Shown piece after piece: positions 37,824 through 41,654 of a DNA stretch of 42,384 bases. Origin of the DNA: Microcaldota archaeon. Its GTDB lineage: Archaea > Micrarchaeota > Micrarchaeia > Anstonellales > Anstonellaceae. Within the stretch, counting starts at the first letter, position 1. Every line of letters begins with the position of its first letter. The position numbers and the translations under genes are program-made. The notes beneath the pieces are model-generated. The model saw only the letters and a list, made by a program, of their open reading frames with translations. It did no database searches and was not told where the DNA came from. The stretch covers positions 1 through 42,384 of the forward strand of contig JAKAJC010000010.1 in the NCBI GenBank assembly GCA_021814005.1, given 5' to 3'.

Positions 37824-38777
37824 TTACGAATTCGGCATTGTGGGCCCCAAATCAATGGTGGGCACGCCCGCTCTCTCTGGCGGCTTTTCCACTTTGGCCA
37901 GACTCACCGACATTGCCGGCTTTGCTCCGGCAATGGACAGCCGCCTGTTTCTCAATTCAAGATAAATTTCCTGCAATGAGTCGAATTCCTTTTGCTCAAC
38001 CTCGTTGAGGCTGGCCGCCTGGCTCTGGGCCAGCTTCATCTGGATTTTGCGGCCCACTTCCTGCATGTGCTTCTCGTTCTCTTCCCACTCTTTGAGCTTG
38101 TTCTTGTTTACCCAAAAAAGCATTCCCGGACTGCCCGAATTGCCGACGCTCATCGACACCTCTCCGGGCCAGCTCAAAAAGTCCCGGCTGTCAACTTTTT
38201 TTTTATCTAAAGTGAGAAGATTGTCAGACACATATGCCATGACATTGAGGCGGCCCAAAAGAGTCACCATCTCCTGCTGCTGTTCGGGCGTGAGCGAGGC
38301 AATCGTAACCTCGTGCATGGAGTTGGATTCAACAAGAGTGCGCAATGATTCAGCCTCGGGACGGGGCAGCATGTTGAGCAGAATCGTCAGCCTTGCGATT
38401 TCCTCGCGCCGCTCATAATTCTGCTTTGTGATTTCAGCCCTCTTGCGCAAAAGCTCGAACACCGCGCCCGAGCGGCTCTTTAGGGCCGCATCAAGCGCCT
38501 CGCGCGAATGCTGGTTTATTTCAGCGTTAATGGAAATGAGGTCGGCGCGCTTGGGCACCACCATCACCAAATCCACTTGGCGTATGCGCTCCTCAATCGG
38601 TTTGAGGCGTGATTCGACGTCGGAAAGCTGAGTATTCAATGCAAGCACGGCCGGATCGTCCGCGCCGGTGCCGTGCCGCGCCAGAAAATCGCGGCGGAAA
38701 ATAGTCTCCTTCTGCTTCCGGTACAGAACGGTGTAATCCACCAGCTCTGAACTCGTAATCACGATAGGTGCATCCAC
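37824..38777 (-). CDS. Uncharacterised coiled-coil-rich protein
   Basis: The protein (317 residues from a GTG at 38777) is not recognised. Two long coiled-coil regions (LSDVESRLKPIEERIRQVD through NYERREEIARLTILLNML, and LKEWEENEKHMQEVGRKIQM) surround a smaller beta-rich part (SMSVGNSGSPGMLFWVNKNK). No signal or membrane segment is visible. The start is uncertain: a TATA-like ttaaatac (38799-38806, minus strand) lies 25 bases before the GTG at 38777, but a GTG at 38762 or an upstream ATG at 38864 are possible. It leads the pair with the 36719-37786 gene. Confidence 0.6.
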   Translation of the reverse strand: MDAPIVITSSELVDYTVLYRKQKETIFRRDFLARHGTGADDPAVLALNTQLSDVESRLKPIEERIRQVDLVMVVPKRADLISINAEINQHSREALDAALKSRSGAVFELLRKRAEITKQNYERREEIARLTILLNMLPRPEAESLRTLVESNSMHEVTIASLTPEQQQEMVTLLGRLNVMAYVSDNLLTLDKKKVDSRDFLSWPGEVSMSVGNSGSPGMLFWVNKNKLKEWEENEKHMQEVGRKIQMKLAQSQAASLNEVEQKEFDSLQEIYLELRNRRLSIAGAKPAMSVSLAKVEKPPERAGVPTIDLGPTMPNS

Positions 38778-38890
38778 GTCAACGCATGGGGCGGCAAGGT
38801 ATTTAATGCCTTCACAAAACCAAAAACCAAAATTCGCGCCGCTTTTTTTCCGTCTTTTCACCAATCACGCTCGCGCTGGGGAAAAATAAT

Positions 38891-39107
38891 TTCCTGGCGG
38901 CCCAGCCGGGCCGGAAACAAAAAGACGAAATGGTGTGGGAGGTGAAAGTTCCCAACCGGGCCGGACCGCCATGAATGCGAGTGGCGACCATATTTCATTG
39001 GCAACCCGGGAGCGGGCAAAATTATGAGGTGTGGGAGGTATTGACCCAACCCCCGGGTTGCCATGAAGATGAGGGGGTTTGCGTGCCAACACAACCCCGC
39101 TCTTTTT
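38891..39107. ncRNA. Twin related long hairpins and a third small hairpin with T-run
   Basis: This stretch fills most of the gene-free region 38778-39180. Hairpin 1 (38896-38970) has GGCGG/CCGCC at its base and about 17 pairs in a 23-position, indel-free register, extended outward by TTC/GAA. Hairpin 2 (39000-39062) has 11 perfect pairs, GGCAACCCGGG/CCCGGGTTGCC, then scattered pairs. Both carry GGTGTGGGAGGT in the loop and ATGAA just after the stem. The stem bases differ but pairing is preserved. A small hairpin GGGGTT/AACCCC (39074-39098) with TTTTT after it could end a plus-strand transcript. Expression and strand are unknown; a repeat remnant is the alternative. Confidence 0.45.
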
Positions 39108-39180
39108 GGTCGCCTTGCCATTTGCGCCCCGAAATTTTAGCGCATATGTCAAGCATGATATTTGGATGAAACGGCAATTC

Positions 39181-39621
39181 TCATGCCGTTCTCATCCGAT
39201 AGTAAACCACCCGGCCTGCCTGCGCCTTTTCGAGCAAGCCCAATTCATAGAGCCTGCTCAGGCGCGCCGAGGCCGCATTCCTGCCTTTGTATTTGAACTT
39301 GACCTGAACATCAGAGGCGCACACGTTTCCGCGCGCGCGAATCAGCTGCACAATCTGCTCGTCAGCCGGCGCGAGCATCAATTCGCGCTCGCCGGCCCCG
39401 AACGTTGTCGGGCTGCCCGACATGCTGATGCTTACACCGGCGCTTTCCAGAACGCCGGGCGCGGCAGCCTGCGGGCCGGACGCCATCGCCGGCAGTTTGG
39501 ACACTTTCTGCTCCACCCTTTCCAGTCTTTCTTCCAGGGACTGCAGCCGCGTGAGCATTTCGCGCATCAGACCGGACAGCTCCGCCGCCGTCTGCAAAGT
39601 TTTATATTCCCCAGACCCCAT
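39181..39621 (-). CDS. Coiled-coil and winged-helix protein, possible regulator
   Basis: The 146-residue protein has an N-terminal coiled coil (MREMLTRLQSLEERLERVEQ) and a C-terminal winged-helix-like domain (ADEQIVQLIRARGNVCASDV, then NAASARLSRLYELGLLEKAQ and GRVVYYRM as the wing). That fits a MarR/ArsR-like or replication-associated small DNA-binding protein; the target is unknown. The ATG at 39621 has AAGGT seven bases ahead. An internal ATG at 39567 is possible because an aatataaaac sequence lies 30-40 bases before it. Confidence 0.65.
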   Translation of the reverse strand: MGSGEYKTLQTAAELSGLMREMLTRLQSLEERLERVEQKVSKLPAMASGPQAAAPGVLESAGVSISMSGSPTTFGAGERELMLAPADEQIVQLIRARGNVCASDVQVKFKYKGRNAASARLSRLYELGLLEKAQAGRVVYYRMRTA

Positions 39622-41156: not shown

Positions 41157-41186
41157 TTTCTTTTTCATTTTTTAATCTCATTTTCT
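41157..41186. terminator. T-rich terminator between convergent genes
   Basis: Successive T-runs (gtttctttttcattttttaa and catttt) fill the 30-base gap between the 40655 gene and the toxin gene. Confidence 0.5.
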
Positions 41187-41434
41187 CATTCGTAAACGTC
41201 TTTGCGGTGCCGCACGCGGACCACCGTGACATCTTTTCCAACGACGATATAGACCACGCGGTATTTCCCGACATGGATGCTGCGCTTGTTCTTGAGCATG
41301 TTGGAGAGCGGCTTGCCGAGTTGGGGATGCTCGGTCAATTGGAGAATCTTCTTCAAAATGGGAATCTGCACCGATTTGTCCAGCACCTTAATCTGCCGGC
41401 ACGCTTCTTCGGTGTAAAACAGCTCATAGCTCAT
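41186..41434 (-). CDS. RelE/ParE-family toxin
   Basis: The 82-residue toxin has the RelE-fold signature: YELFYTEEACRQIKVLD, helices, then PLSNMLKNKRSIHVGKYRVVYIVVGKDVTVVRVRHRKDVYE. The basic residues and the end HRKDVY are typical of ribosome-dependent mRNA interferases. Its ATG overlaps the antitoxin's final codons by 11 bases, so the pair is translated in coupling. RelE versus ParE cannot be told by eye. Confidence 0.85.
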   Translation of the reverse strand: MSYELFYTEEACRQIKVLDKSVQIPILKKILQLTEHPQLGKPLSNMLKNKRSIHVGKYRVVYIVVGKDVTVVRVRHRKDVYE

Positions 41435-41654
41435 GCTTCAAACCCAGGCTCTTGACAAGCTTGGAGTGGGTTAAAACCTTGCCGGATTTGTACGCCTTCT
41501 CGCCGCGTTCGGCCGCCTTGATGTCCTCGATGATTTCGGCCTCTTCCAGCTTCTGCAGAATGGCGCGCCGCGCCACTTCGCTCCAGCGGAATTCGGAATG
41601 CCGGCGCATGCGGGCGTAAACTTCTTCAGGGACGCTTAAGGTGAGGTTGGCCAT
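41424..41654 (-). CDS. Antitoxin, ribbon-helix-helix type
   Basis: The 76-residue protein begins ANLTLSVPEEVYARMRRHSEFRWSEVARRAIL, a ribbon-helix-helix-like DNA-binding N-terminus, and ends in a charged tail (KAAERGEKAYKSGKVLTHSK) that would bind the toxin. AGGTGA is before the ATG at 41654. It overlaps the toxin gene by 11 bases and probably represses the operon through the palindrome at 41670-41687. VapB-like and RelB-like labels are both possible. Confidence 0.82.
   Translation of the reverse strand: MANLTLSVPEEVYARMRRHSEFRWSEVARRAILQKLEEAEIIEDIKAAERGEKAYKSGKVLTHSKLVKSLGLKHEL

Follow-up and report, generated by a model that had tools for sequence, protein, structure and literature searches.

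The window, that is, the whole 42,384-nucleotide stretch of DNA that was analysed, comes from a Micrarchaeota archaeon and carries on its minus strand a gene for a winged-helix protein and, directly behind it, a structured element whose start is at most ~20 nt from this gene's stop codon. The protein, with the signature Y[KR]GxNAAS[AS]RLxRL, matches no Pfam or NCBIfam family at the cut-off and is conserved both in Altiarchaeota and in the majority of the genomes of the order. Read along the minus strand, the element consists of a small hairpin ending in GCAAGGCGACC, a linker hairpin and two long hairpins with large loops. The features of the locus are as follows:

39181-39621, minus strand: winged-helix protein gene (coiled coil plus wHTH, ArsR/MarR-like), directly upstream of the RNA and its conserved partner across the order
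39108-39160, minus strand: 5' part of the RNA, a short hairpin in which CTTG... pairs with GCAAG and whose end is GCAAGGCGACC, with the motif at 39108-39118
39071-39102, minus strand: variable linker hairpin (GAGCGGGGTTG...CAAACCCCCTC), whose count (0-3) and sequence vary among genomes
38994-39067, minus strand: anti-Shine-Dalgarno (anti-SD) loop hairpin, first RNA copy (hairpin 2 of the sequence-only reading), with loop ACCUCCCACACC, equal to plus strand 39028-39039
38983-38989, minus strand: GGUCGCC, which by pairing with GGCGACC (39108-39114) is predicted to close a branched domain round the first copy
38895-38971, minus strand: anti-SD-loop hairpin, second RNA copy (hairpin 1 of the sequence-only reading), with loop UUUCACCUCCCACACC; its block is plus strand 38932-38943
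37824-38864, minus strand: downstream gene with no assigned function, next in line in many genomes but not in all

The two long hairpins are present where the sequence-only reading had placed them (38896-38970 and 39000-39062), and the loop block that it described as shared, the 12-nt GGTGTGGGAGGT, is indeed identical at 38932-38943 and 39028-39039 (plus-strand coordinates). The stem changes it gave for the two copies, GGCGG/CCGCC in one and GGCAA/TTGCC in the other, are also correct. The hairpin at 39000-39062 is built on a perfect 12-bp inverted repeat (38999-39010 / 39052-39063). While that reading was right about the two hairpins, it did not list the 5' part, with GCAAGGCGACC at 39108-39118 and its upstream hairpin. 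A third small hairpin followed by TTTTT, which it also described, exists as the variable linker, but is not the terminator of a minus-sense RNA, where the tract reads AAAAA. The GGUCGC at the predicted domain-closing site is retained in the genome of a relative, G003.

A TATA-like box, recognised by eye, lies just ahead of the likely leaderless start of the downstream gene at 37824-38864, and suggests that this gene is transcribed separately. The next downstream gene differs between genomes, while the RNA stays with the winged-helix gene; the element is thus not the leader of one downstream gene. A role as 5' leader of the downstream gene was rejected both because that gene changes among genomes and because the by-eye TATA-like box intervenes in several.

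Conservation, covariation and sense strand

A DNA search returned an 82% match within the same genus and weaker matches further out. The same architecture is found family-wide, namely GCAAGGCGACC, 0-3 variable hairpins and then the long hairpin with its near-invariant loop, and the 5' motif GCAAGGCGACC with its upstream hairpin occurs in all members of the window's family and also in several other families. Two copies of the long hairpin are present in the window's genome and in G003, and one in most relatives. No aligned copy (18/18) departs from the loop core ACCUCCCACA, whereas the stems are almost wholly different between genera; a variant loop, ACCUCCCACC, occurs in two further members of the family. 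The search of related archaeal genomes with a covariance model, which had been proposed as the check on the two hairpins, yielded additional members, including two from other families, and homologues with conserved pairing were found.

The winged-helix gene is present in 71 of the 84 genomes of the order. For these 71 loci (one per genome), the 330 nt past the stop codon were searched for an ACCUCC/CCUCCC-type motif between complementary arms, which was found in 52 as compared to 1 of the 123 other gene ends of the same loci (Fisher p = 6.5e-30, a value that overstates independence, as the genomes are related). The count of 52/71 is conservative, since the 5' arm in family f11 overlaps the coding end and was missed. 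By family, the test was positive in 19/19 loci of the window's family, in 29/37 of the best-sampled sister family and in 0/5 of f8, where the winged-helix gene is kept and the RNA is absent by the motif-and-arms test. Each genome has one RNA locus, at the same gene.

The sister-family unit is composed of GGCAAG, a hairpin with the loop ACCUCCCGCCUC, and CUUGUUAUCCUCCC, and stands in tandem as two units in some genomes and three in one. In alignment A6, which covers the sister family, 94% of the cells pair and 11 of the 21 pairs are changed on both sides, with a covariation score above that of all shuffles (0/500); pairing falls to 38-48% when slid by one column. The alignment of the window's own family (A3, nine distinct copies) agrees, with 3 compensatory pairs out of 18, though its copies are too alike for power. 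Compensatory changes that keep the structure, as required of a structured RNA, are found. The original proposal of a new structured RNA in tandem was borne out by paired homologues in many related genomes, tandem copies in the sister family and the lack of an Rfam match.

Sister family f7 (L150, L268, L100, L265, L266, L271 and others) has a second conserved hairpin, CUAGA..UCUGACCAGGG..UCUAG with the loop UGACCAGGG, which is located ~100-230 nt past the winged-helix stop in nine RNAs and is part of the f7 RNA. In Altiarchaeota (L178, L217, L224, L208, L172, L196, L228), the C-rich CAACCACCYC is repeated beside hairpins directly after the stop of the orthologous winged-helix gene, and these repeats may correspond distantly to the Micrarchaeota RNA. 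Micrarchaeaceae-type genomes (L187, L202, L209, L210, L230) have a plain GC-rich hairpin behind the winged-helix gene, without a C-rich loop.

The folding energy is -117.8 kcal/mol on the minus strand (z = -7.19), a value equalled by 0 of 200 shuffles, and weaker on the plus strand, at -100.2 kcal/mol (z = -2.95). Within the delimited stems there are 29 G-U and 0 A-C positions, a count biased by the partial use of sense-strand folds to delimit the stems; a recount in symmetric windows gave 53 against 32 (p = 0.03). Two G-U pairs are also conserved in the outer helix of the sister-family alignment. This asymmetry, the conserved outer-helix G-U pairs and the position behind the winged-helix gene together point to the minus strand as the sense strand of the RNA. 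An RNA from the plus strand was rejected on account of its weaker fold and the G-U/A-C asymmetry. Of the nine sister-family RNAs that have the 3' UGACCAGGG hairpin, seven carry a U6-7 tract behind it, which is a plausible transcript end on the minus strand. Taken on conservation, covariation and synteny, a structured, minus-strand RNA conserved across the order is very probably real.

Anti-SD likeness and candidate targets

The 3' end of the 16S rRNA of the window's genome is GAUCACCUCC, and UCACCUCC is common to it and to the RNA loop in most members. The loop core conserved across families, ACCUCC/CCUCCC, is the anti-SD itself, and the C-rich motif is followed by a U-tract in 36/40 loops. 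Among the genes of the window, some starts are apparently leaderless and others are preceded by SD sites of the AGGUGA type. As the loop carries the UCACCUCC of the 16S tail and SD-led starts exist, an RNA with a free loop would be expected to compete for SD sites.

Across 20 genomes of the family, extended loop complements were not enriched over a reversed control. Three near-matches in the window's genome lie exactly at start sites of thioredoxin-fold-like (thiol-oxidoreductase-like) genes, so named from the CxxC motif and their mutual homology; two are DsbA-like (GGUGUGGGAGGUCAUUUC-AUG, UUGUGGGAGGUAAAACAU-AUG) and the third has WCPHC. The SDs of the dsbA-like genes in the family are stronger, GGGAGGU being found in 7/18 of them compared to 3/41 other genes in the fetched DNA (p = 0.006), a difference that was noticed post hoc and concerns paralogues. 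For the best candidate, a dsbA-like gene on contig C10, the loop-complement extension is absent from the nearest relative, G003, where CGGGAGGU alone is kept. In the sister family, none of the matches examined was an exact complement of the loop GGCGGGAGGU at a convincing start site outside the RNA. The dsbA-like mRNAs may be targets of the RNA, as a lead only.

In the window's genome, DsbA-/thioredoxin-like genes with start sites complementary to the loop over 9-11 nt lie at L296 (1104-1934, minus strand), L297 (ATG behind TTGTGGGAGGT) and in the L298 region. Other exact loop matches, such as L041-L048, fall in coding or unrelated sequence and were set aside. The recurrence of GTGTGGGAGGT in one conserved coding sequence in several genomes of the family (L048, L034, L043, L047, L028) is explained by the protein sequence, a Gly-Val-Trp-Glu-Val motif. 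The likeness to an ATPase leader that the sequence-only reading had pointed out (GTGTGGGAAGT) proved to be at chance level, with GTGTGGGAGGT occurring 15 times in the genome at <=1 mismatch as against 23 for the reversed control; pairing with this leader was discarded accordingly.

Known RNAs and competing explanations

At gathering score, Rfam 15 gave no family match and found tRNAs alone, and a permissive Rfam search of the locus returned only sub-threshold chance matches, the best scoring 16.5 bits where the cut-off is 100. The RNA is previously undescribed. Mechanisms are known for few archaeal small RNAs, and the literature searched contained nothing relevant on regulatory RNAs of Micrarchaeota or DPANN.

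The bacterial "cuckoo" RNAs have a C-rich loop motif. In Rhodobacter sphaeroides, the cuckoo RNAs CcsR1-4 form a homologous cluster at the CIN1 locus, directly downstream of and co-transcribed with ccaF1 (DUF1127), and their processing by RNase E has been shown (PMC10253847). They are the nearest genomic precedent, as an RNA behind a small regulatory protein gene with which it is kept together across a lineage. Their upstream protein, however, is a small RNA-binding DUF1127 rather than a winged-helix, ArsR/MarR-like protein, RNase E processing is a feature of the bacterial RNAs whereas any processing of the archaeal RNA is inferred, and no sequence relation was seen. The nearest mechanistic precedent is NfeR1 (alpha-r14) of Sinorhizobium meliloti, whose hairpins display the identical anti-SD motif CCUCCUCCC unpaired on unrelated stems, and which uses these redundant motifs to cover the ribosome binding site at the start and so silence mRNAs (PMC10746234). 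The archaeal RNA shares the variable stems and ultraconserved loop motif. However, NfeR1 is bacterial, was not found by the Rfam search of the archaeal locus, and its CCUCCUCCC is not in the archaeal loops, where the invariant ACCUCCCACA is an analogous anti-SD of other sequence; the archaeal element is also located behind a winged-helix gene, carries CACCUCCCAC with a U-tract as well as the GCAAGGCGACC hairpin on its 5' side, and has putative targets. Among archaea, sRNA162 of Methanosarcina mazei, which lies beside an ArsR-type winged-helix regulator gene, comes closest as a precedent for the masking of a ribosome binding site (PMC3510493). This RNA pairs by its single-stranded linker, not by repeated anti-SD loops, and was likened by description, not sequence. 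In design, the archaeal RNA appears to resemble alpha-r14 and the cuckoo RNAs, with no evidence of sequence kinship.

The likeliest single mechanism, if one held at somewhat under even chances, is that of an anti-SD regulatory RNA encoded in the 3' untranslated region of the winged-helix gene. The minus-strand transcript would be the 3' untranslated part of the winged-helix mRNA, or a small RNA processed out of it, whose long, sequence-variable stems would display one to three large loops with the near-invariant anti-SD ACCUCCCAC, usually followed by a U-tract. By copying the 16S 3' tail (UCACCUCC), the loop would pair with the SD sequences of leadered mRNAs and bar ribosome access, giving a translational repressor co-expressed with a transcription factor. 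In its favour are the minus-strand fold, the near-invariant loop, the recurrence behind the winged-helix gene, the covariation, the sequence shared with the 16S 3' end, the sister-family U6-7 tracts and the stronger SDs of the dsbA-like genes. Against such a repressor stand the lack of genome-wide enrichment of extended loop complements, the sister-family complements examined, none at a convincing start, and the absence of the best candidate target's extension in the nearest relative; many genes of the lineage also look leaderless, and would hence be immune. The first of these points speaks for a protein-binding 3' untranslated region or RNA sponge. Its C-/U-rich loops would capture an RNA-binding protein, which may be of the Lsm/Alba-like kind or the winged-helix protein itself, and so serve autoregulation or titration, the anti-SD likeness being secondary. 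The GGA-loop RNAs of bacteria serve such a role for CsrA. The constancy of the RNA beside the winged-helix gene while the downstream gene changes, the tandem repetition of the loop motifs, the U-tracts behind them and the Altiarchaeota repeats, C-rich yet less complementary to SD sites, all fit a sponge, but the core conserved between families is precisely the anti-SD, the protein partner is putative, and f8 has the winged-helix gene without the RNA. This explanation is judged rather unlikely, second to the anti-SD repressor.

Less probable again is an element that serves only the 3' end of the winged-helix mRNA, as a stability or transcript-end structure without function in trans. Its position directly after the stop codon, the U-tracts of the loops, those that follow the last hairpin in the sister family, and the plain GC hairpin at the same place in Micrarchaeaceae-type genomes agree with this, but a terminator or stability structure needs no near-invariant 10-nt C-rich loop, 5' GCAAGGCGACC motif or two to three tandem copies, and such hairpins are lacking at control gene ends (1/123 positive). 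High-GC palindromes on both strands, and open frames of 87-95 aa that cross the region, might recall a mobile palindromic repeat, chance palindromes or a repeated peptide; covariation and the single locus per genome, at an orthologous position across families, make these highly improbable. The palindromic repeat family left open by the sequence-only reading, REP-like and expected in many dispersed copies, is rejected on that single locus, and the repeated peptide that it had disfavoured is rejected because close relatives differ by indels whose lengths break the reading frame, not being divisible by three.

The broader form of the anti-SD repressor, an RNA of the 3' untranslated region of the near-universal winged-helix regulator that is order-wide and, through the Altiarchaeota C-rich repeat, possibly phylum-spanning, controls a set of SD-led mRNAs and is convergent with the alphaproteobacterial anti-SD RNAs, is a possibility put at roughly one in three. 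If so, one locus would act on transcription via its protein and on translation via its RNA. SD masking, if true, would mean that bacteria and archaea each evolved repeated anti-SD hairpins behind a regulator gene on their own, and would separate the control of leadered from that of leaderless mRNAs in lineages that use both. The RNA family is compact, deeply conserved and supported by covariation, and its loop is immediately testable. Elsewhere in the window, a ParE-type toxin gene lies at 41186-41434 on the minus strand, and the small gene upstream of it (41424-41654) looks like its antitoxin.
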